Below the pieces are notes generated by a model that was not told the origin of the DNA, searched no databases, and was given only the letters and a program-made list of their open reading frames with translations. From Deltaproteobacteria bacterium (GTDB lineage Bacteria; Desulfobacterota; GWC2-55-46), in contig JACOUO010000011.1 of the NCBI GenBank assembly GCA_016177845.1, positions 378,326 to 442,325 of the forward strand: DNA of 64,000 nt. Reading direction: 5' to 3'. The position numbers and the translations under genes were made by a program. Positions 46,811 to 58,494 of the stretch are shown here, piece by piece (position 1 is the stretch's first letter; every line of letters starts with the position of its first letter).

Positions 46811-47542
46811 TTAGCTAATGCTGGGCATCAAACTGTTCAGATACCCTGCTATAATACCAAGAGAATTGGTAAATATCAATACCCCAGTTGCTACAAGGAA
46901 AACTCCGGTGACAATTGAGACCACCCTCATGTGCCTCTTAAGCTTATTGAAGTGCTTGAGGAATGTATTGATACCAAGGGATGTAAGAAGAAACGGTATG
47001 GCAAGGCCTACCGAATAAGCGACAAAAAGCATCATGCCTGACCAGGGTGTATCAGATGTGGCGGCAACGGCGAAAATGGCTGACAGTATCGGGCCGATGC
47101 AAGGGGTCCAGCCCGCGGCAAAACCTATTCCGACAAGAAAAGAGCCGAGAAGCCCTGAGGGCTTTTCCCTGAAGAAGTGCAGCCTCTTATCCCTCTGAAG
47201 GATCTTGAAGTTAATGATACCGATTATATGGATGCCGAGAAGTATAATGGCAAGGCCGCCTATTTTACGGATAATATCCTGGTACTCCATGAAAAGCGAG
47301 CCGAAGAGCTGCGCCGATGAGCCCAAAATCACGACAAAAACAGTCGAAAAGCCGAGAATGAACATCAATGAGTTGAACAGGATTACCTTTTTGAGCTTAT
47401 CATTGTCCTCGCCGGTAAGCTCCTCAAACGATATCCCCGTGACAAACGAGATATATGAAGGGACGAGCGGCAGTACGCAGGGAGATATGAAAGAGAGTAT
47501 GCCTCCAAGAAATGCTATTGGTATTGATACTTCATTTGTCAT
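46811..47542 (-). CDS. ccdA: cytochrome c biogenesis protein CcdA
   Basis: CcdA passes reducing power from cytoplasmic thioredoxin to periplasmic thiol proteins. The protein has about six membrane segments, with the two redox cysteines in FISPCVLPLVP and GWTPCIGPI. The ATG at 47542 gives 243 residues and overlaps the end of the TlpA-like gene by 11 nt. A TTG three codons earlier is possible. Partners in the same operon are the two thioredoxin-fold proteins just upstream. Confidence 0.94.
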   Translation of the reverse strand: MTNEVSIPIAFLGGILSFISPCVLPLVPSYISFVTGISFEELTGEDNDKLKKVILFNSLMFILGFSTVFVVILGSSAQLFGSLFMEYQDIIRKIGGLAIILLGIHIIGIINFKILQRDKRLHFFREKPSGLLGSFLVGIGFAAGWTPCIGPILSAIFAVAATSDTPWSGMMLFVAYSVGLAIPFLLTSLGINTFLKHFNKLKRHMRVVSIVTGVFLVATGVLIFTNSLGIIAGYLNSLMPSIS

Positions 47543-48059
47543 AAGCAAGCAACTCCTCTAAAAATTTAATGGCACTATTACTGTTCCAGTCCCTTGCGCC
47601 TATCGCTTTTCCTATCAGATGCCCTTGCCTGTCGATAAGGTATGTGGTCGGAAGGAAGCGCGCGTTATAAAGCTTACTGATGCTGCCCGACTCATCAGGC
47701 AGAACGGGAAAGGTGTATCCGTTTCCGTTCACGAATTCAGCCGCGGAACCTTGCGGCTCAAGGCTGTTCACCGCCATGATGACGAGCCCCTTTTCACTTA
47801 GTTTCCTGTAGGCTGACTCCATCGAAGGCATCTCTTCCCTGCATGGCACACACCATGTTGCCCAGAAGTTAAGCATTACCGCCTTGCCCTTCAGGCCGCT
47901 TAGCGATATTTCCCTGCCCCTTATATCCTTGAGCGTGAAATCAGATGCGTCACGCTCTTTAATCCTCTCGATATTCAAATCAGCCCATAGGTCCCCTGCA
48001 AACAGGGTTACCGGAGTAAAAAGCAACATAAACAAAACAAGGCTGATTACAGCATTCAT
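47532..48059 (-). CDS. TlpA/ResA-family thioredoxin, exported (copy 2)
   Basis: The 175-residue protein has an N-terminal membrane or signal segment (about 5-22), a thioredoxin fold and the active site FWATWCVPCREEMPSM near residue 72. It is probably a periplasmic thiol reductase that accepts electrons from CcdA. It starts 1 bp after the stop of a second, related thioredoxin (48061-48657), and its end overlaps ccdA. Confidence 0.92.
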   Translation of the reverse strand: MNAVISLVLFMLLFTPVTLFAGDLWADLNIERIKERDASDFTLKDIRGREISLSGLKGKAVMLNFWATWCVPCREEMPSMESAYRKLSEKGLVIMAVNSLEPQGSAAEFVNGNGYTFPVLPDESGSISKLYNARFLPTTYLIDRQGHLIGKAIGARDWNSNSAIKFLEELLAYDK

Positions 48060-48060
48060 T

Positions 48061-48657
48061 TTATTTCTTGTCAGTCTTATATGCGTCCTTTGGTTTCGGG
48101 CCGTTCCTTAAAAGATCGACAATTACCGCTATGGACGATTCTTCTGACCAATCCCTCGGCCCCCATACCTTCTCGGCTATGATGCCGTTCTGGTCGATTA
48201 TGAATGTTTCGGGAACGCCGGTTGTCTTGTATATCTCTTTATTTTTGCCTTTCTGGTCATGAAGAACCGTAAAGGTAAGGCCGTACTTTTTCACATAATT
48301 CCTTACTACCTCGGGGCCGTCCTTATCAACGCTTACGGCTACTATCTCAAATTGCTGGCCTTCAAAGGCTTTGTAGAGAGCCTGCATCGAGGGCATCTCC
48401 TCTTCGCACGGTTTGCACCATGTTGCCCAGAAGTTAAGGAATATTACCTTTCCCTTGTAATCGCTCAACTTAACCGGCTTGCCGTTAAGGTCCGGCAAGG
48501 TGAAGTCGATCATCTCGGAGCCTGCGCCTACCGGCTCGAATTTCTTCTTCCCTCCGAGCACTATCGCTGTAACGACCCCGATGAGAACGAGTATTATTAT
48601 AATGATTGCTACCTTGGGCAGACCTTTTTCATTTTCAGTGTTTTTAATATCGCTCAT
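48061..48657 (-). CDS. TlpA/ResA-family thioredoxin, membrane-anchored (copy 1)
   Basis: The 198-residue protein has an N-terminal anchor (about 16-35, VAIIIIILVLIGVVTAIVL) and a thioredoxin domain with FWATWCKPCEEEMPSM near residue 78. ResA-like proteins reduce apocytochrome c haem-binding cysteines before haem ligation by ResB/CcsB, whose genes lie just upstream beyond a terminator. Tandem copies with CVPC and CKPC active sites suggest division of labour. Confidence 0.92.
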   Translation of the reverse strand: MSDIKNTENEKGLPKVAIIIIILVLIGVVTAIVLGGKKKFEPVGAGSEMIDFTLPDLNGKPVKLSDYKGKVIFLNFWATWCKPCEEEMPSMQALYKAFEGQQFEIVAVSVDKDGPEVVRNYVKKYGLTFTVLHDQKGKNKEIYKTTGVPETFIIDQNGIIAEKVWGPRDWSEESSIAVIVDLLRNGPKPKDAYKTDKK

Positions 48658-48712
48658 GGCTATTCTAAGGGTTCTTTCATTAAAGGATTATTAGAAGATG
48701 AACTTACCTTTT

Positions 48713-48742
48713 ATAAAAAAACCGGCCAGTTGGACTGGCCGG
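48713..48742 (-). terminator. Terminator after ccsB
   Basis: On the minus strand a 9 bp perfect stem (48734-48742 with 48722-48730) around a 3-base loop is followed by seven T residues. It lies 16 bp past the ccsB stop and separates the resB-ccsB transcript from the resA-like gene. Confidence 0.92.
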
Positions 48743-48758
48743 CAGATTTTAAACAAAA

Positions 48759-49643
48759 TTAAGCGTATGCGTGGAGACCGGGGAGGATAAAGCTTACGCC
48801 CCAGTAGAGGAATATGACCGCAAGGAAGCCCGCAATCGAGAGATACGCGGCCCTTCTGCCTCTCCAGCCCCTTGTGACCCTGGCGTGAAGGTAAGCGGCA
48901 TAGATGAACCATGTGATAAGCGACCATGTTTCCTTAGGGTCCCAGCTCCAGTATGAGCCCCATGCGTAATTTGCCCATACCGCGCCTGACACAATGCCTA
49001 CCGAAAGGAACGGGAAGCCCCAGGCAATTGCCCTGTAGCTCAGTTCATCGATTATATCGGCTCCCGGAAGGGCATTCATGAAGCCCGAGCCTGACCTAAG
49101 CTCTGACCTTTCCTTGATTATAAAAAGGATGCTCAGGCCGAAAGCAATGGCAAAACCCGCATAACCCACGAATGTGGTGAACACATGGAAGTCCAGCCAG
49201 CCGATTGCGTAGTTCTGAAGGCCCATCGGCGAGAGCATGTCCATCATCCAGTGCCATTTGTTCTGAAGTGCGGGGTTAAGCGGCTCTACACTCTTAAACC
49301 TGTAAGGAAGGAGTGAAGCTGAGAGCATCGCAAGGAACTCAAGGATCATTACGATAGCGCCTATTGCCTTGAACTTATGCTTGAATTCCATCAGCAGGTA
49401 GCCTGCGTTCGTAGCCCAGATAAAGAGCACCATTGACTCATAAAGGTTTGAGAAGGGCGCATGGCCCGATTCCCCTGCCCTTGTCACAAGCACCATTGTT
49501 GTGGACATAAGAGCCACAAAGGCCATTGCCGTGGCGGTTTGGCCGAGCCACTTCTTTTTAAAGATCCAGAACCCTGTATACAGCAAAGCCGTAATCAGGT
49601 AAAACGCAAATGAAAATGTGAAGAAAACCAATGACAAAATCAT
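48759..49643 (-). CDS. ccsB: System II cytochrome c synthesis protein CcsB (ResC)
   Basis: With ResB this protein exports haem and ligates it to apocytochromes c. The 294-residue protein has about eight membrane segments and the tryptophan-rich WWD-type loop WGSYWSWDPKETWSLITW near residue 235, plus conserved haem-ligand histidines in the membrane part. It ends before a strong terminator and follows resB by 22 bp. The symbol ccsA is used by some annotations. Confidence 0.94.
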   Translation of the reverse strand: MILSLVFFTFSFAFYLITALLYTGFWIFKKKWLGQTATAMAFVALMSTTMVLVTRAGESGHAPFSNLYESMVLFIWATNAGYLLMEFKHKFKAIGAIVMILEFLAMLSASLLPYRFKSVEPLNPALQNKWHWMMDMLSPMGLQNYAIGWLDFHVFTTFVGYAGFAIAFGLSILFIIKERSELRSGSGFMNALPGADIIDELSYRAIAWGFPFLSVGIVSGAVWANYAWGSYWSWDPKETWSLITWFIYAAYLHARVTRGWRGRRAAYLSIAGFLAVIFLYWGVSFILPGLHAYA

Positions 49644-49665
49644 TTAATTGCCCCCTTAATCCCTC

Positions 49666-51075
49666 TTAATCTGCCTTTATGGATTCAATTATCTCTTTTA
49701 ACTCTTTCTCAAAAACAAGGGTGTTTTTATTAATCATGCCGCCTATCTTGAGCTCTGTTGACCTGCCTGTGTCCCTTATGTGCATCCACAGCCTCCTGTG
49801 ATACACGAAGAAGGCGAGTATGAAGCCTATGCCCATTACAATCGTACCGGCCCACACCACATTCGTGCCGGGGTCCTTGTTGATGGAAAGCCCGGAGTAC
49901 ATTGTCGGACGGTAATTTGTAAGGACAAGGTCTTCATCAGCCCCGGGTATCGCCGGGAAGATGCCCGGATAATTCATGAACAGCCAGGGTGTGGCGACTA
50001 TCTTATCGCCATCATAGACCTCAAGCCTGACAGCCGGATTGTTCGCTTCTGCCGATTTTGAGAATACCTGATTGGTCTTCTCGTCGTAGGCAAAGTCCGC
50101 GGCATAGCCGACAAGCTTTACCGAATACCTGCTGTTAGGAAGCTGCTGTACCGTATCCCATTTTACTGGAACAGGCGTCTCAACCCCGTCGCTGCCCTTT
50201 CTCTTGATTGCTATGTATGCCTCTTCTACCCTGTTCCATGCCTGGCCGTAGCTGCTCTGGTAGAAGCGGATGCCCTTGTAGTAAAGGGGCTCGTTTACCC
50301 AAATCTGTTTTGAAAGGACCTCTTTGCCGCCCTCGATAACTGTAAGGACGCTGTTATACTGCCTTATCTGGCCTGAATCGTAATAGTCTATCCAGAACTT
50401 ATCGAGCCTGAGCTTGAACTCGGCATCAGGCACTTCCATTGTGCCGTTTACAAATACGGCCCTGAAATCTTTATATCCGGCAAAGCTGCCGATTATCGCG
50501 CCGAGCAGGATTAAAAGCAGGCTTATATGCACCACATCTGAACCGAGGCGGCCCATGCGGCCTTTCCACGCGTAGAAGTGGTAATCCCCTTTTGTGCCTG
50601 ACTCAACGATGCCGTATTTCTTTTTCTTCAGCGCATTGAGAAGTTTTTCCTTTACTGCGTCGGAATTGCCGTTAAGCGTAATCGTCTGGTGGTTTGAGAA
50701 CCTCTCTATGAGCTTTGCGTCAAATCTTTCCGGCTTATGGTTAAGCAGGGATTTCCACTTGGGCGGAAACCTCTCAAATGTGCAGACTATGATATTGAGA
50801 GCGAGCATTCCGAGGAGCGCGAGGAACCAGTAGGAATGGTACATGTCATTGAGGCGGAAAAACAGTATTGCCTTCGCCCACTTCTCGCCGTACTTGGTAA
50901 GGTATTCCTCTATCGGAAGGTTCTGCTCGACTACGGTACCGATAATAGAGACCACGGCAAGCGTAATGAGCACCGCAAGCGTAAGCTTTAAGGAGTTAAA
51001 AAGATACCAGAGCTTATTTTTATACCAGGGCTTTCTTTCGTCAGCGGCCCTTGCCACTTCTTTAATTTCCGGCAT
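49666..51075 (-). CDS. resB: System II cytochrome c synthesis protein ResB (Ccs1)
   Basis: The 469-residue protein has three N-terminal membrane segments (about 25-50, 80-100 and 175-200), a large periplasmic domain and one C-terminal helix (about 400-425, WAGTIVMGIGFILAFFVYHRR). It carries the ResB pattern LKLTLAVLITLAVVSIIGTVV and FYQSSYGQAW. It partners CcsB in haem handling. It follows the TPR lipoprotein by 11 bp. Confidence 0.93.
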   Translation of the reverse strand: MPEIKEVARAADERKPWYKNKLWYLFNSLKLTLAVLITLAVVSIIGTVVEQNLPIEEYLTKYGEKWAKAILFFRLNDMYHSYWFLALLGMLALNIIVCTFERFPPKWKSLLNHKPERFDAKLIERFSNHQTITLNGNSDAVKEKLLNALKKKKYGIVESGTKGDYHFYAWKGRMGRLGSDVVHISLLLILLGAIIGSFAGYKDFRAVFVNGTMEVPDAEFKLRLDKFWIDYYDSGQIRQYNSVLTVIEGGKEVLSKQIWVNEPLYYKGIRFYQSSYGQAWNRVEEAYIAIKRKGSDGVETPVPVKWDTVQQLPNSRYSVKLVGYAADFAYDEKTNQVFSKSAEANNPAVRLEVYDGDKIVATPWLFMNYPGIFPAIPGADEDLVLTNYRPTMYSGLSINKDPGTNVVWAGTIVMGIGFILAFFVYHRRLWMHIRDTGRSTELKIGGMINKNTLVFEKELKEIIESIKAD

Positions 51076-51086
51076 GTGTATTCCCT

Positions 51087-51650
51087 TTATTTTTTATTTA
51101 GCTGGGCCAGATACTCAGCGGCAGCCTTACCGACCTGGCTCTCAGGATTCAAAGCGCGGGCCTTTTCCCACGCCGCTTTTGCACCTTCGAGGTCGGCCAT
51201 GCCGTAAGCGGTTATAAAGCCTTTGGTAAGCCAGATACGCTGGTTATACGGGTTTTTCTTGATGCCTTGTTCTATGTACTTGAGCCCCTCGGGAGACCTG
51301 CCGAGATAATGGAGCGCAAGCCCGAGCTCATTGTAGATATCCGATTCGTTCGGAGTTATCTCTATTGCCTTTTTATAATTCTCAACAGCCTCGTTGTACT
51401 GCCTGCTTTCAAGATAGGCGTCTCCGAGCGCCCAGTAGACACTGGCGTCATTCGGCTTTTCCTTGAGGCGAGCTTTAAGGTCGTTAATAAGAGTTGCGTT
51501 GTTCGGGCCGCCCTGCATGGCGGTTGGAGCGCCGCCTTGGTTTGCATTAGGCTCAGTTGCCTGCTTGTCAGACTTGGAACACCCTCCAAGACTGAGCGCC
51601 GCAAGACAGCTTAATGTAATTACTCCGATTGCCAGTTTTTTAATCTGCAA
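51087..51650 (-). CDS. TPR lipoprotein
   Basis: The 187-residue protein has a signal peptide ending in a lipobox (SLGGC, modified cysteine at residue 24), a low-complexity Asn/Gly linker and about three tetratricopeptide repeats (DASVYWALGDAYLESRQ, SDIYNELGLALHYLG and so on). It is placed directly ahead of resB-ccsB, where TPR proteins (CcmH/NrfG-like) often chaperone apocytochromes. That role is inferred from position. Confidence 0.85.
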   Translation of the reverse strand: MQIKKLAIGVITLSCLAALSLGGCSKSDKQATEPNANQGGAPTAMQGGPNNATLINDLKARLKEKPNDASVYWALGDAYLESRQYNEAVENYKKAIEITPNESDIYNELGLALHYLGRSPEGLKYIEQGIKKNPYNQRIWLTKGFITAYGMADLEGAKAAWEKARALNPESQVGKAAAEYLAQLNKK

Positions 51651-51665
51651 TGGTCATCCCCCTCT

Positions 51666-52091
51666 TTAGTGATGCAAGCTTGAAAATTCCTTATCAACTT
51701 TTTCCCTGATCGTCTTTATGTCAGCGCCCTGCTTATGCAGGTCATAAGCCATCAGCGCTTCGTTTATGCATATGTCACAATGGACCGCGTGTTCATCAAC
51801 ATAACAGCTTAAAAGGCTCTTGTGGCCGAGGTGCTTTTCGCAGTCGCAATAACAATAGAGGCTGTCGAGCACCTCCGGTATCTCCTGGGCGGCCTGATAT
51901 GCCATCGCAGTCTCACCGGTATAGTTCATTGGAGACAATGTCGCCCGTGTTTCTCCACCCCTTACGGGGCCTTTTACATCGGTCTTCGACTGGCATGATG
52001 TAAGGGCTATAACAGCCAGGAATGAAAAAAGGACAGGAGCCAACAGGAATTTTTTTAAGGTCAGTTTATTTATACTAAAACGGCTATGCAT
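51666..52091 (-). CDS. PCYCGC-type lipoprotein
   Basis: The protein has a signal peptide ending in a lipobox (VIALTSC), then a cysteine-rich region YCYCDCEKHLGHKSLL and CDICINEA, which matches the PCYCGC motif family. These proteins often accompany cytochrome c or metal-handling genes. I chose the ATG at 52091 (141 residues) because a promoter lies immediately upstream; the frame extends to a TTG at 52148. It opens the PCYCGC-TPR-resB-ccsB series. Confidence 0.82.
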   Translation of the reverse strand: MHSRFSINKLTLKKFLLAPVLFSFLAVIALTSCQSKTDVKGPVRGGETRATLSPMNYTGETAMAYQAAQEIPEVLDSLYCYCDCEKHLGHKSLLSCYVDEHAVHCDICINEALMAYDLHKQGADIKTIREKVDKEFSSLHH

Positions 52092-52097
52092 TTGAAT

Positions 52098-52126
52098 GTT
52101 ATAACCTTTTTTCTGACCGTTTTCAA
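52098..52126 (-). promoter_or_regulatory. Promoter directly upstream of the PCYCGC lipoprotein
   Basis: The minus strand has a -35 TTGAAA (52121-52126), a 17 bp spacer and a -10 TATAAC (52098-52103), a five-of-six match. Only six bases lie between the -10 and the ATG at 52091, so the transcript would start at or next to the start codon. Confidence 0.6.
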
Positions 52127-52309
52127 GCAAGTTTATAATAACAAACAAGTATTAAAAAAATATTAACTCAAGATTAGTATTCGCTGTTAATCCACTCATA
52201 ACAGGAGGATATATCAGTAATATATCGCACTAAATCCAAGGTACTTGAGGGTTAAATGCAGGTTTTAAGGTTTTCTCCGATGCAGTGAAGGAAAGGCTCA
52301 GGAGGAAAT

Positions 52310-52336
52310 AAAAAAAGCCGGGGGAATCACCCCGGC
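52310..52336 (-). terminator. Terminator after the rnf operon
   Basis: On the minus strand a GC stem of seven to eight pairs (52330-52336 with 52317-52324) is followed by seven T residues. It lies about 29 bp past the rnfB stop. Confidence 0.92.
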
Positions 52337-52364
52337 CCTGTATTAATTATTTTAAAAAACTCAG

Positions 52365-53213
52365 CTACCCTGCCCTCTTTGAAGACGCCTTGAAACTTGC
52401 CTTTGTGTTCTGCCCTTCTATCCCGTAAGCTATACACTTTGTAGGACATCTCTTTGTAGATTCGTCGTTCTGAGGGGCAACGGCGTAGTTTACCGTTGCA
52501 AGGTTGTCCTTTACTGCGATTCCGCCCGGCACAGAGCAGTCTTTTACGCACAGCGAGCAGGCAATACAGGATACGCTGCATACTTTCTTGGCCTGAGCGC
52601 CCTTATCTTTGCTCTTGCAATAGACAAAAAGCTTGTGGTCTTCGGGGTGCATCTCGATTATATCTCTCGGGCATGCCTTTGCGCACGCGCCGCACCCTAC
52701 GCATTTATCATAAAATACAACAGGCAAACCATTGTCATTCATAGACATTGCGTCAAATTTGCAGGCTTCTACACACTCGCCGTAGCCAAGGCAGCCGTAT
52801 GTGCAGCCCTTGTCCCCGCCGGTGAGGTTTGACGCAGTGCATGAGAGCTCGCCTTTGTAAGTAGCCCTTCTCTCAGCCTCTGCGTGACCGCCTTTACACA
52901 GGACAACCGCAATGGTTCTTTTAACCGAGCCCGCCTCTACTCCAAGTACGCCGGCAAGCTTATTTGCCGTATCGCTTCCGCCCGCAACACAGGCTGTCGG
53001 AGGCGCATCACCCTTCATAAGGGCTTCTGCAAGCATCCTGCAACCGGGATAACCGCAACCGCCGCAGTTCGTATTCGGAAGAGCGCCCATTATGGCCTCT
53101 ATGCGGGGGTCTTCCTCTATCGTGAACTTTTTATCCGCATAGGCGAGAAACAGAGCAAGCGCTGCTCCAAGGCCTCCCATGCTTACTGCTGATATGATTA
53201 ATGATCCGCTCAT
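52365..53213 (-). CDS. rnfB: Rnf complex subunit B
   Basis: RnfB is the soluble-domain iron-sulfur subunit that takes electrons from ferredoxin. The 282-residue protein has one N-terminal membrane helix (about 4-26), a CGGCGYPGCRMLAE cluster motif (about 50-60), and ferredoxin-like motifs: CLGYGECVEACKFDAM, CVGCGACAKACPRDI and CIACSLCVKDCSVPGG. It is the last gene of rnfCDGEAB. The number of clusters appears to be at least three. Confidence 0.96.
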   Translation of the reverse strand: MSGSLIISAVSMGGLGAALALFLAYADKKFTIEEDPRIEAIMGALPNTNCGGCGYPGCRMLAEALMKGDAPPTACVAGGSDTANKLAGVLGVEAGSVKRTIAVVLCKGGHAEAERRATYKGELSCTASNLTGGDKGCTYGCLGYGECVEACKFDAMSMNDNGLPVVFYDKCVGCGACAKACPRDIIEMHPEDHKLFVYCKSKDKGAQAKKVCSVSCIACSLCVKDCSVPGGIAVKDNLATVNYAVAPQNDESTKRCPTKCIAYGIEGQNTKASFKASSKRAG

Positions 53214-53259: not shown

Positions 53260-53838
53260 CTATCCCCTGATAAGACCTGCAAAACCCATGAACGCAAGAG
53301 CCATCATGCCCGCTACGATCAATGTAATGGATATACCCTGAAAATGCTTCGGGATGTCTGCAAACTCAAGCTCTTCCCTGATGCCTGACATCATGAGCAT
53401 CGCAAGAGTGAAACCCACGCCTGTGGCAAAACCGAATACTATTGCCTCTAAGTAATTATACTCCCTCATGACCATAAAAAGTGCGAGTCCCAGGACAGCG
53501 CAGTTCGTGGTGATAAGGGGCAGATAGATACCAAGGGCCCTGTAGAGCGCCGGGCTTGATTTACGGATATACATCTCAACGAACTGGACAAGCGCCGCGA
53601 TGATGATGATAAACGCGACATATTCAAGGAACGGTATGTTGTATCTTACAAGCAGATAGTTATAAATAGGCCATGTTGCCGCTGCCGTAAGCGTCATGAC
53701 AAAGGTTGTGGCAAGGCCCATGTTAAGGGCGTTCTCTGTTTTGTTCGACACGCCTAAAAACGGGCATATACCGAGGAAGTAAGTCAGGACGAAGTTGTTT
53801 ATCAGCGAAGCCGATATGAAAATCATTATTAACTTCAA
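53260..53838 (-). CDS. rnfA: Rnf complex subunit A
   Basis: RnfA is a 192-residue membrane subunit with six helices. It opens with IFISASLINNFVLTYFLGICPFLGVSN, containing the conserved cysteine thought to ligate an intramembrane iron-sulfur centre with RnfE. The start is TTG 53838, well spaced from an AGGAG site; an ATG four codons later lacks a suitable site. It lies 11 bp after rnfE. Confidence 0.96.
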   Translation of the reverse strand: MKLIMIFISASLINNFVLTYFLGICPFLGVSNKTENALNMGLATTFVMTLTAAATWPIYNYLLVRYNIPFLEYVAFIIIIAALVQFVEMYIRKSSPALYRALGIYLPLITTNCAVLGLALFMVMREYNYLEAIVFGFATGVGFTLAMLMMSGIREELEFADIPKHFQGISITLIVAGMMALAFMGFAGLIRG

Positions 53839-53849
53839 GGCTCAATCTC

Positions 53850-54476
53850 CTAAAGTGTCTCAGTCCCCGGGGTCTTCCTGGAGGATATGTAATTAACCAG
53901 GGCTACGAGGCCGCCATATACAAGAAATGCTCCGGCGGGAAGGATCATTACGATCCAAGGCTCAAACCATTCGCCAAGCAGTTTAATATTCAATACGCTT
54001 CCAAACCCGAGTAGTTCCCTTATAAAGCCCATTGTTGCAAGGCTCAGCGTGAACCCGATACCGATGCCAAGTGCGTCCATGATAGAAGGGACAACCGGAT
54101 TTTTCTGGGCAAAAGCTTCAGCCCTTCCAAGGATGATACAGTTAACGATAATAAGAGGCACATAAGGCCCGAGTGATTTTGATATCGGGGGGAACTTTGC
54201 GGCAAGGAACATATCGGCAACCGTAACCAGAAGCGCGATAATAACGACATAGGCCGCTATCCTGACCTGTGAAGCAATATACTTTCTCAAAGCAGATATA
54301 ATTATATTGGCGCCGAGAAGAACAAATAAGGTGGCAAGACCCATCGCTATGCCGTTTATTACCGAGTTGGTAACGGCAAGAGTAGGGCATGTGCCAAGAA
54401 CAAGCCTGAAAGGAGGAATATCCTGCCACAGGCCTTTTTTAAACTCGTAAAACAGTGATGTATTATTTTCCGCCAT
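53850..54476 (-). CDS. rnfE: Rnf complex subunit E
   Basis: The 208-residue membrane subunit is the inverted-topology partner of RnfA. The conserved LVLGTCPTLAVTNSVINGIAMG segment near residue 26 carries the intramembrane cysteine, and about six helices follow. Its start overlaps the end of rnfG by 14 nt. Confidence 0.96.
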   Translation of the reverse strand: MAENNTSLFYEFKKGLWQDIPPFRLVLGTCPTLAVTNSVINGIAMGLATLFVLLGANIIISALRKYIASQVRIAAYVVIIALLVTVADMFLAAKFPPISKSLGPYVPLIIVNCIILGRAEAFAQKNPVVPSIMDALGIGIGFTLSLATMGFIRELLGFGSVLNIKLLGEWFEPWIVMILPAGAFLVYGGLVALVNYISSRKTPGTETL

Positions 54477-55110
54477 TGCCAGTCTCCTTTGAAGCAGGGG
54501 CTGCGGCAGGCTGAACTGTACCGCTCTGTGCTTTTGTAATTTCTTCCAGAGGGAAGTTAGTCAGGACTTTCTCAACTGCTCTGTTGATATTGACTACAAC
54601 AGCATTTGAAGAGATTGTAGCGCCTGTTATAGCCTGAATCTGGTTGGGCTTCTCAGGCTTCCTGAACTTTATGTATTCAACCTTGGGCTTTACATCCACA
54701 CCCTTGAACTGGTCTTTGAACTGGGGTTCCCTGATCCTGTCTCCAAGGCCCGGCGTCTCAACCTGATCAAGTATTTCAATGCCTTTGAGGTTTAAGTAAT
54801 CCATTTCAAGGCCGACCATTACGCCGACATTACCCTGGAATCCGCCTCCGTCAGCCTTAAACGCCACACCGATAGGCTTCTGATTTGCATCAATACCGAG
54901 ATAAACAGTAAAGTCCTCGGCCCCTATTTTCTTTTCGATTTTCCTGTAATCCTTTGCCTCTGGGAGCACCTTGAATATGGACTCCTTAAGCTCCTTCTGC
55001 TTATTGGCCTGAATAAGCGGGTCTGCCACGCTGAAGACCCCGGACAGGACTACTCCGGCAAAGGCCCCGATGACCGTAAGGTTCAAAAACATTTTAGTTA
55101 GATTATTCAA
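54463..55110 (-). CDS. rnfG: Rnf complex subunit G, flavoprotein
   Basis: The 215-residue subunit has one N-terminal membrane helix and a periplasmic flavin domain. The covalent FMN site ITGATISSNAVV has the modified threonine at about residue 165. The FMN transferase ApbE was not found in this window, so it must be encoded elsewhere if this site is used. A low-complexity Pro/Ala tail follows. Confidence 0.96.
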   Translation of the reverse strand: MNNLTKMFLNLTVIGAFAGVVLSGVFSVADPLIQANKQKELKESIFKVLPEAKDYRKIEKKIGAEDFTVYLGIDANQKPIGVAFKADGGGFQGNVGVMVGLEMDYLNLKGIEILDQVETPGLGDRIREPQFKDQFKGVDVKPKVEYIKFRKPEKPNQIQAITGATISSNAVVVNINRAVEKVLTNFPLEEITKAQSGTVQPAAAPASKETGNGGK

Positions 55111-55147: not shown

Positions 55148-56164
55148 TTATTGGACTTTATAACCTTCCCCGAAGACCTTGGGCCTTGTGTGCTTATTCA
55201 AAAGCGGGACAAAGGCGTTCATGAACAGTATTGAATACATTACGCCTTCCGGCAAACCGCCAAAAAGCCTTATTATGACAGCGAGTATCCCGGCGCATAT
55301 TACAAATATCCACTGGCCGAGTGCCGTAGTGGGCGAAGTTACCATATCAGTTACCATAAACCAAGCGGCAAGCATTGCGCCGCCCGCGCAGACATGGAAG
55401 AGCGGGCTTGGATATTTAGCGGGGTTGATAAGCCAGAAAATACCTGAGAAAACAGCTATTGTGCCGAGATAACCGAGCGGAAGCTTCCAGTTGACATACC
55501 CTTTATAACGGAGATACAGCCCTCCGATAAGTATTGCGATAACTGATGTTTCGCCAAGAGAGCCTGCTACATTGCCGATAAACAGGTCTGAAAGCGGGGC
55601 GAACTTGCCTTCAAACTTCATCATTGCAAGAGGGGTTGCCGCTGATACCGCGTCAACTGCCTTCTGCACTGTCCTGGGCTCTACCCATGTTGTCGTAAGC
55701 ACCGGGTATGTAGCCATCAGGAACGCCCTGCCCAAAAGGGCCGGGTTAAAGATATTGTAGCCGAGTCCGCCGAAGAGCATCTTTCCTACGCCTATGGCAA
55801 AGACCGAACCGAGTATTGCCCCGTATATCGGGAAGCCAGGAGGCAGTGTAAATGCAAGGAGAATACCTGTTATGGCCGCGCTGCCGTCATATATCTTAAC
55901 AGGTTTATTGCGTATTTTCTGGAATGCATACTCGGTAACAAGACATGCGCCGATACATACTAAAATGAGCAGCAGGGCCCTGAAGCCGAAGAAATAGACG
56001 CTTGCGGCAGTTGCCGGGAAAAGCGCCATTACTACCGTATGCATTATCTTTGGAATGCTTTCGGTATTCAGGAAGTGCGGAGAAGATGATATGACCAGCT
56101 TTCCGCCCTGAGCAGGGGCTGCAGGCGATTCTTTTATCTCAGTCTTTTCCAATGTCTTATCCAT
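55148..56164 (-). CDS. rnfD: Rnf complex subunit D, flavoprotein
   Basis: The 338-residue membrane subunit has about nine helices and is thought to take part in ion translocation. The covalent flavin site lies in DAVSAATPLAMMKF (threonine about residue 177). The NPALLGRAFLMATYP segment is also typical. It follows rnfC by 6 bp. Confidence 0.96.
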   Translation of the reverse strand: MDKTLEKTEIKESPAAPAQGGKLVISSSPHFLNTESIPKIMHTVVMALFPATAASVYFFGFRALLLILVCIGACLVTEYAFQKIRNKPVKIYDGSAAITGILLAFTLPPGFPIYGAILGSVFAIGVGKMLFGGLGYNIFNPALLGRAFLMATYPVLTTTWVEPRTVQKAVDAVSAATPLAMMKFEGKFAPLSDLFIGNVAGSLGETSVIAILIGGLYLRYKGYVNWKLPLGYLGTIAVFSGIFWLINPAKYPSPLFHVCAGGAMLAAWFMVTDMVTSPTTALGQWIFVICAGILAVIIRLFGGLPEGVMYSILFMNAFVPLLNKHTRPKVFGEGYKVQ

Positions 56165-56170
56165 ATTCTC

Positions 56171-57499
56171 TTATTTTGCCGCGGCTTTCTGGGCTTCCTT
56201 GCGGAGCCTGTATTTTCCTAAGCGTATCCACTGCAAAAGCGGCCTCTTGGCAGGGCATACATATGAACAGCAGCCGCACTCAATGCAGCTGAGAGCGTCC
56301 CATGCCTTGAAATCCGCTGTCATGGCAGCCTTCCCGTAATCGCCGAGCCTGTAGGGCATAAGGCCCATGGGGCAGGCGCTTACGCAGCTTGCGCACTTGA
56401 TGCAAGGGTCGTAATTATTTGATTTTATCGAGGCGGCTGATATTACAGTGATGCCTGATGTGCCTTTTATAACAGGAACCGCCAATGTTGACTGGGCAAT
56501 GCCCATCATGGGGCCGCCGTTTAATACCTCTGTTTCACCTGTGCCGTTCAATCCGCCGCACTGGTTCAATACTTCTTCAAAAGAGGTGCCTATGCGCACT
56601 CTCAGGTTCCTGGGTTCCCTCACCCCGTTTCCGCTTATAGTGACAATTCTTTCGATAAGGGGCTTTTTATAGACTACCGCGTCATAAATGGCTGCCGCTG
56701 TTCCGACATTATTTACGACGACGCCTACATCAAGGGGGAGTTTTCCGGGAGGGACTTTTCTTCCGAGGCCTGCTTTTATGAGCATCTTTTCAGCGCCCTG
56801 CGGATATTTTGCTTCAAGTATTACTAATTTTATATTGCCGCCGCCGATAGCCTTTTTAAGCGCCTCGATTGCGTCAGGCTTATTCTCTTCTATTCCGATA
56901 ATGCCGTTTGCCGCGCCTGTTGCCTTCATAAGGGCTTTAAGGCCCCAGACTACCTTTTCAGGCTCTTCAAGCATTATCCTGTGGTCTGCCGTAAGGAACG
57001 GCTCGCATTCGCAGCCGTTAAGAAGGATAGTATCTATTGCCTTACCCTTTGGCGGGGCAAGCTTTACCGAGGTCGGGAATGCCGCTCCGCCCATGCCTAC
57101 GATACCGGCTTCCCTGATTATCTCGCGAAGCATATCAGGAGTAATGGCATTGAGGTCTGCGGAACCTTCAGCCTTCCACTCCCTTGTGGTGCCGTCGCCT
57201 TCAATGACGATTGACATCACCCTTGTTCCGCCGGGGTGTGAGGCAAGCTCTATATCTTTGACTTTTCCGTTGATGCTTGAATGGATAGGGGCTGAAACAA
57301 ACGCCTGAACATCGGCTATCTTCTGGCCTTCCTGAACGGCATCACCCTTTTTAACGAGAGGCGCGCAGGCTGCTCCGGCATGCTGCTGAAGAGGAATGAT
57401 TACGGTCTTAGGCAAAGCCGCCTGCTCGACTTTCTTTGCGGCGGTCAGTTCCTTGTAATATGCGGGGTGAATACCCCTATCAAATGTTTTGTGTCCCAT
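56171..57499 (-). CDS. rnfC: Rnf complex subunit C
   Basis: RnfC is the NADH-side subunit, similar to the NuoF fold. The 442-residue protein has a glycine-rich nucleotide-binding stretch (REAGIVGMGGAAFPTSVKL near residue 135, then LLNGCECEPFLTADHR) and two C-terminal [4Fe-4S] motifs, CIKCASCVSACPMG and CIECGCCSYVCPAKRP. It is the first gene of rnfCDGEAB and the ATG at 57499 has a GGGAG site. Upstream lie a ZTP riboswitch and a second promoter. Confidence 0.97.
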   Translation of the reverse strand: MGHKTFDRGIHPAYYKELTAAKKVEQAALPKTVIIPLQQHAGAACAPLVKKGDAVQEGQKIADVQAFVSAPIHSSINGKVKDIELASHPGGTRVMSIVIEGDGTTREWKAEGSADLNAITPDMLREIIREAGIVGMGGAAFPTSVKLAPPKGKAIDTILLNGCECEPFLTADHRIMLEEPEKVVWGLKALMKATGAANGIIGIEENKPDAIEALKKAIGGGNIKLVILEAKYPQGAEKMLIKAGLGRKVPPGKLPLDVGVVVNNVGTAAAIYDAVVYKKPLIERIVTISGNGVREPRNLRVRIGTSFEEVLNQCGGLNGTGETEVLNGGPMMGIAQSTLAVPVIKGTSGITVISAASIKSNNYDPCIKCASCVSACPMGLMPYRLGDYGKAAMTADFKAWDALSCIECGCCSYVCPAKRPLLQWIRLGKYRLRKEAQKAAAK

Positions 57500-57520
57500 T
57501 TTTCTCCCAAGGGTGATGAA

Positions 57521-57585: not shown

Positions 57586-57712
57586 ATAAAAAACCGTCAT
57601 GGCAAAACATGCAACTCTGTTTGAGTTACACCTTTTTGCCCAGACGGTCGGCATGACTACTATATATCTCCCGCTCCCCAGTGGTAGCCACTTTCATTCC
57701 GTCAGTTACGGG
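57586..57712 (-). ncRNA. ZTP (pfl-type) riboswitch with terminator expression platform
   Basis: The aptamer runs from about 57712 to 57637 on the minus strand. It has the diagnostic blocks of the family: ACTGACGGAAT near the 5' end, a GTGG...CCAC stem with a purine-rich loop, a variable linker, and the 3' core GCCGACCGTCTGGGCA that forms the pseudoknot. These match the known Fusobacterium-type ZTP aptamer closely. The 3' part doubles as the left arm of a terminator (ACCGTC, GGGCAAAA pairing with TTTTGCC, GACGGT), ending in a T run at 57586-57593. ZTP or ZMP binding should favour anti-termination of rnfC. Confidence 0.9.
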
Positions 57713-57732
57713 AAAATCTTTATTATATGTTC

Positions 57733-57762
57733 ATCTTAATTTAAAACTACTCTGTTTGTCAA
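57733..57762 (-). promoter_or_regulatory. Promoter ahead of the ZTP riboswitch
   Basis: The minus strand has a perfect -35 TTGACA (57757-57762), an 18 bp spacer and a -10 TAAGAT (57733-57738). Transcription would begin about 14 nt before the aptamer. The region 57500-57813 (314 bp) holds this promoter, the riboswitch and the second promoter, and no gene. Confidence 0.6.
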
Positions 57763-57813: not shown

Positions 57814-58494
57814 CTATTCCCCTTTAAACGCGCCTTTCACAATATAAAAGAGGCAGATTATGATGCCCACGAGCACGAGAAAAATGCTAAGCGCGGCAAT
57901 CGGAAAAACAGATTCCTGAGCCTCTTCGATACCCAAGGCTGTTGTCCTGAAACCCATGATTATCCACGCAAGGGGATAGAATATACTGCCTACCCCGAGG
58001 CATGCTGACGCGAATGTCTTAATCCTGTATGGTGCTGCAAGCAGCACAAGGATAATGGATGAAACGACAGACAGTGTCCCAAGCCCCATTGCATGGAGAT
58101 GCCCCCTTGTAAGCCTCTCGTGCGCTGCCTCCATCTCAGGGTCATTATGGCTTGAGTGGTCATGCTTTGCCGCCTGCTCTGCTGCTCCCATTATATGGTC
58201 TTCATGGGATGCGATGCCGCTATCATGGCTATGCTCGTGTGAAGGCGCAGCCTTGCTGATCTGGTGATTCATATGGGCGCTGTGATCGCCTGCGCCTGCT
58301 GAGGGGTTTATGATGAATTTCTCTTCGATTGCGGCCCGAGAGCTTTCAATGAGGGTCTTATGGATTTTGTCGTGATTGACGGTAAGGTACATTGCCCAGA
58401 AGACACCAAACACAAGACTTAAAAAACCTAAAAGAAGCCCTATAACTACCGGCTTTACGGCTGTATGCATTGTACTGTTGCTCCTTTTTCTCAT
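57814..58494 (-). CDS. histidine-rich membrane protein of unknown family
   Basis: The 226-residue protein has one N-terminal helix (about 13-37), a hydrophilic loop with 14 histidines between residues 71 and 134 (HSAHMNH, HEHSH, HEDH, HDHSSH), and three further helices (about 134-154, 159-182 and 197-220). The His-rich part is probably outside the membrane and could bind metal. The segment RGHLHAMGLGTL joining loop and helix 2 looks like a possible haem or metal site. I do not recognise the family. Its ATG overlaps the htrA stop (ATGA), so it is translationally coupled to htrA. Confidence 0.75.
   Translation of the reverse strand: MRKRSNSTMHTAVKPVVIGLLLGFLSLVFGVFWAMYLTVNHDKIHKTLIESSRAAIEEKFIINPSAGAGDHSAHMNHQISKAAPSHEHSHDSGIASHEDHIMGAAEQAAKHDHSSHNDPEMEAAHERLTRGHLHAMGLGTLSVVSSIILVLLAAPYRIKTFASACLGVGSIFYPLAWIIMGFRTTALGIEEAQESVFPIAALSIFLVLVGIIICLFYIVKGAFKGE

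Follow-up and report, generated by a model that had tools for sequence, protein, structure and literature searches.

The window, by which we mean the whole 64-kb stretch of DNA analyzed here, contains a ZMP/ZTP riboswitch aptamer directly in front of a six-gene rnf operon, which encodes an electron-transferring ion pump. Its features are as follows:

57733..57762, minus strand: sigma70-like promoter (TTGACA at 57762-57757, an 18-nt spacer, and TAAGAT at 57738-57733; 10/12 matches)
57631..57719, minus strand: ZMP/ZTP riboswitch aptamer (P1, P2, and P3), assigned by RF01750 and by covariation
57699..57703, minus strand: pseudoknot 5' strand GACGG (J1/2), which pairs with CCGUC in 97.9% of cells in an alignment of 29 rnf leaders
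57643..57647, minus strand: 3' strand of the pseudoknot, CCGUC, within the P3 loop, which doubles as a portion of the terminator 5' arm
57588..57648, minus strand: intrinsic terminator (hairpin 57648-57593, U-run 57593-57588)
57504..57508, minus strand: likely ribosome-binding site of rnfC, GGGAG, judged by its sequence
56171..57499, minus strand: rnfC (TIGR01945, 522 bits)
55148..56164, minus strand: rnfD (TIGR01946)
54463..55110, minus strand: rnfG (TIGR01947)
53850..54476, minus strand: rnfE (TIGR01948)
53260..53838, minus strand: rnfA (TIGR01943)
52365..53213, minus strand: rnfB (TIGR01944)
52314..52339, minus strand: strong intrinsic terminator at the end of the rnf unit (10-bp stem, T-rich tail)

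RnfC, D, G, E, A, and B all scored above their NCBIfam cutoffs, with no other gene among them. The ATG of rnfC at 57499 is 88 nt 3' of the U-run, and thus the original prediction, which placed rnfC about 90 bp downstream with no gene between, was correct. Because a 10-bp terminator lies 3' of rnfB, the sequence suggests that the transcription unit is exactly rnfCDGEAB and that the riboswitch controls nothing beyond rnf. A cytochrome c maturation set is found 3' of rnf (46811-52148, minus strand: a CYCXC protein, a CcmH-like TPR protein, and ResB, continuing by eye with CcsA-, TlpA-, and CcdA-like genes), and several relatives keep these genes in this order after rnf, yet behind a terminator. 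A longer operon reaching them was ruled out by the strong terminator at the end of rnfB, despite the conserved gene order. On the 5' side of the riboswitch, positions 57814-58494 (minus strand) encode a conserved His-rich membrane protein that matched no Pfam or NCBIfam family.

The sole Rfam match in the window (cmscan) was the ZMP-ZTP aptamer, RF01750, at 57631-57719 on the minus strand. The match was full length (1-86/86; E value of 7.5e-7 for 64 kb and all 4,227 families) and scored 58.1 bits (gathering cutoff, 39), so the covariance-model search proposed with the original prediction confirmed the complete pfl/ZTP aptamer that it had claimed. The claimed span, 57586-57712, holds the terminator and most of the aptamer, which extends beyond it to 57719. 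Across the 29 aligned rnf leaders, P1 was paired in 83% of cells, and 7 of its 12 pairs covaried, with changes on both sides; P3 was paired in 80.8%, its outer pairs being weak. The pseudoknot joins J1/2 to the P3 loop, whose conserved sequence CGUCUGG, bearing the U that contacts ZMP (PMC7337938), was present in 30 of 30 rnf copies. The aptamer core is common to the copies linked to rnf, isocitrate dehydrogenase (IDH), and serA, and the rnf leader RNA is an ordinary member of the known ZMP/ZTP class. Some leaders in the class look decayed: in one rnf leader (L179, G346:C93:4555-4640), the pseudoknot strand is damaged, reading GACAA in place of GACGG, and the terminator is intact; this leader is possibly decaying.

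The terminator reads ACCGUCUGGGCAAAAA..UUUUGCCAUGACGGU-UUUUUU, with six U's at the end. Its 5' arm, ACCGUCUGGGCAAAA, is built from the P3-loop pseudoknot strand and the 3' strand of P3, and because these are the aptamer's own strands, aptamer and terminator are mutually exclusive; by pairing analysis, a terminator exclusive with P3 and the pseudoknot is a layout of the transcriptional ON type. The predicted overlap of aptamer and terminator was borne out, the P3 3'/pseudoknot strand being reused in the hairpin at 57648-57588. A U-run terminator overlapping P3 was kept in all 30 rnf leaders of the class. In 29 of the 30, arm pairing was matched by at most 2 of 100 arm shuffles, and the 29 aligned leaders had 43 terminator cells with double changes compared with 25 in the shuffles. 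Sliding the arms by 1 to 3 columns gave 20 to 42 double-change cells, but paired cells then fell at 35 to 47%, compared with 75% for the unslid arms. The promoter-like site sits immediately 5' of the aptamer. By eye, the majority of the 30 leaders have TTGACA and an AT-rich -10 element at a comparable position, and a similar promoter is also seen in relatives without a ZTP riboswitch, such as G332.

We searched 63 genomes of the class for RF01750 and rnfC, and the downstream DNA was matched to both. In total, 102 ZTP matches were found in 47 genomes, and rnfC was found in 57. The riboswitch lay directly 5' of rnfC in 30 of these 57 genomes, although such genome counts are not independent because the members are related and mostly metagenome-assembled and uncultured. 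Among genomes with rnfC, this arrangement was present in 25 of 27 from the window's family, in 3 of 4 from family f4, in 2 of 7 from family f7, and in 0 of 19 from the others. For a 3-Mb genome with three copies, simple arithmetic puts the chance that a ZTP match falls within 300 nt 5' of a particular gene in the correct orientation at ∼1.5e-4; set against recurrence in 30 of 57 genomes, this expectation means that the placement before rnfC is not due to chance. On the rnfC tree, the ZTP label needs 5 changes, compared with 18 when shuffled. One clade of 30 rows includes 27 with the riboswitch and 3 without it before rnfC, and the pair from f7 is separate. Because the label needs several changes, the riboswitch was probably gained before rnfC more than once, and it is retained across rnfC divergence down to ∼70% identity. 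The arrangement first noted at this one locus, a ZTP aptamer with an overlapping terminator before rnf, is conserved over many genera.

The window's own genome carries three ZTP switches, located before rnfC, before an aminotransferase-serA operon that continues by eye with hisZ and purA, and before an NADP-isocitrate dehydrogenase followed by two subunits resembling ATP-citrate lyase (ACL) or citryl-CoA synthetase (aclBA-like). None of the three adjoins purH or fhs, and purH, the gene of a ZMP-using enzyme, is present in this genome without a ZTP switch. Across the class, 72 of the 102 matches front genes other than rnfC. The most common first genes were isocitrate dehydrogenase (34), accompanied by ATP-citrate-lyase-like genes, rnfC (30), and an aminotransferase (AGXT) followed by serA (20), and the rarer ones were a CPA2 antiporter (5), sucC (4), pntA (3), pyrophosphatase (ppa)-pntA (2), aclBA alone (1), and Kup (1), with 2 matches having no assigned target. 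The CPA2 and Kup targets have no direct fit with an account based on carbon and redox metabolism. In G090, the riboswitch is followed by sucC, sucD, and a 2-oxoglutarate:ferredoxin oxidoreductase (KOR; NCBIfam). The two ZTP-like matches before pyrophosphatase-pntA (L183 and L181, in G320:C5 and G325:C175) scored below the cutoff (33.7 and 38.3 bits) and had no convincing terminator, one lacking a U-run and the other showing weak arm pairing. Two tandem ZTP aptamers (L325/L327, G369:C48:18145-18344) precede a transporter that by eye resembles an oxalate/formate antiporter.

The ACL-like large subunit, present in 55 of the 63 class genomes, carries Citrate_bind (PF16114), and its best PDB match was the citryl-CoA synthetase large subunit (2.4e-35). 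Its 903-amino-acid partner subunit (L058:188-2896, minus strand) matched known proteins over the first third only; the last two-thirds had no sequence match among Pfam families or PDB chains and are possibly a divergent citryl-CoA lyase part. A KOR relative was found in 50 of the 63 genomes and FTHFS (fhs) in 28, the window's genome being included in both counts, and PurH was found in 58. Since fhs is present in the window's genome, formate too can feed 10-formyl-THF there. The ACL-like/citryl-CoA-synthetase-like and KOR markers of a reductive tricarboxylic acid (TCA) cycle are thus present, and the reductive direction is predicted. The CdhC domain of acetyl-CoA synthase, a Wood-Ljungdahl marker, was not detected in any of the 63 genomes, and a Wood-Ljungdahl explanation was rejected for that reason. 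The original interpretation is supported in part; its guessed tie to CO2 fixation is strengthened by the sister targets (IDH/ACL-like, sucCD-KOR, transhydrogenase, and serine synthesis).

None of 60 rnfC loci outside the class, mostly from other phyla and several with little upstream DNA, had a ZTP match, and a general link between ZTP riboswitches and rnf was rejected. Eight of 50 rnfC-bearing outside genomes carry a ZTP riboswitch elsewhere, and by eye the first genes behind those copies were mostly of the pfl, fhs, and purine types, which are the usual targets. A sample of 396 Nitrospirota genomes yielded 11 ZTP switches in 9 genomes. All 11 matches (L338-L348) front genes resembling redox modules: six assigned by profile (NfnAB-like, HdrCB, EtfB, one NuoEF-like pair, and two formate-dehydrogenase-alpha-like), two pntA by BLAST, and three NuoEF-like by their resemblance to the profiled pair.

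We consider it likely that a functional transcriptional ON riboswitch for ZMP/ZTP, with a promoter of its own, controls the operon of six rnf genes, within a class regulon for the reductive TCA cycle, reductant, and serine. In ZTP switches that have been studied, ZMP stabilizes the pseudoknot and prevents an overlapping terminator (PMC7337938). Because the parts of those switches are all present here, high ZMP/ZTP is predicted to turn rnf on; by this analogy, we infer both the ligand and the ON direction of the rnf leader. With ligand absent, the downstream arm would take up the P3 3' strand and the P3-loop strand in a hairpin that halts transcription before rnfC. When 10-formyl-THF is short, ZMP or ZTP would build up and stabilize the pseudoknotted aptamer, the terminator would not form, and rnfCDGEAB would be expressed. 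The same signal would raise the reductive TCA cycle (isocitrate dehydrogenase, the ATP-citrate-lyase-like enzyme, and sucCD-KOR), electron supply (Rnf for reduced ferredoxin and Pnt for NADPH), and serine synthesis, by way of which fixed CO2 would supply one-carbon units. Because the same switch fronts rnf, CO2-fixation, and serine genes, a signal that warns of folate shortage may govern both reducing power and carbon fixation. We infer this physiological logic, and with it the running of Rnf from NADH to ferredoxin.

Histidine synthesis is a further source of ZMP, which also arises whenever PurH works slowly, whatever the cause. The leader could thus sense ZMP/ZTP as a sign of purine or energy state and not of folate shortage, with Rnf and the antiporters being regulated as ion-motive machines. 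CPA2 antiporters, Kup, and pyrophosphatase-pnt among the targets would suit this explanation, as would hisZ and purA within the serA operon (by eye), but the two commonest other targets are carbon enzymes (IDH-ACL-like and serA), and we regard it as unlikely. The redox targets could instead be accounted for by a variant ZTP aptamer that senses another molecule, such as another purine or a redox-linked nucleotide. Such a variant would be in line with targets that are mainly redox and carbon genes, in Nitrospirota too, and with ZMP-using genes such as purH that have no switch. The sharing of one core by rnf-, IDH-, and serA-linked copies, the presence of CGUCUGG in every rnf copy, and the established place of serA among ZTP targets (PMC9481103) all argue against it, and we find it quite improbable.

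The three members of the main clade that lack the switch, together with the damaged pseudoknot strand in G346, could point to a leader that is conserved but unresponsive to ligand, a constitutive attenuator left from a duplicated IDH or serA switch. Such a relic would hardly be expected to retain both pseudoknot and terminator in nearly all 30 leaders, to show compensatory changes in P1 and in the terminator, or to have undergone several label changes on the rnfC tree with more than one gain likely, and we give this explanation very little credence.

ZTP riboswitches are usually regarded as folate/purine emergency switches. We tentatively propose that in at least two phyla, in bacteria of the reductive TCA type and related ones, ZMP/ZTP may signal reductive carbon assimilation, with ZTP switches turning on CO2-fixing enzymes and ferredoxin/NADH/NADPH machines (Rnf, Pnt, NfnAB, Hdr, Etf, and formate dehydrogenase), beyond purine and folate genes. 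If true, a one-carbon alarmone would be tied to autotrophy and energy conservation through control of ferredoxin, NADPH, and the reductive TCA cycle. A ZTP riboswitch joined with rnf or citrate lyase was not found in the open papers searched, and, the primary 2015 paper (Kim et al.) aside, ZTP control of rnf and its sister targets appears to be unreported in open papers.

The rnf leader resembles the rest of the RF01750 class in its aptamer fold, its pseudoknot, the P3 strand held in common with the terminator, and its predicted action as an ON switch. It differs in what it controls: the targets commonly listed are purH, fhs, pfl, glyA, and folD (PMC2864571), whereas this copy fronts rnf, and its sister copies front IDH-ACL-like, sucCD-KOR, and pnt genes. 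Rnf itself is encoded as elsewhere (TIGR01943-01948) by six subunit genes in one operon, but here it lies under a ZTP riboswitch, unlike at any of the outside rnfC loci scanned. Both serA and moeA are also ZTP targets (PMC9481103). With the tandem ZTP/glycine serA switches (PMC9481103), the aminotransferase-serA targets of the class share a serine-to-one-carbon logic, although in the class serA is the second gene, after the aminotransferase, and one target among several. The moeA copies (PMC9481103), like the rnf leader, show targets beyond purine and folate genes; they are predicted to be OFF switches, whereas the rnf leader is predicted to be an ON switch.
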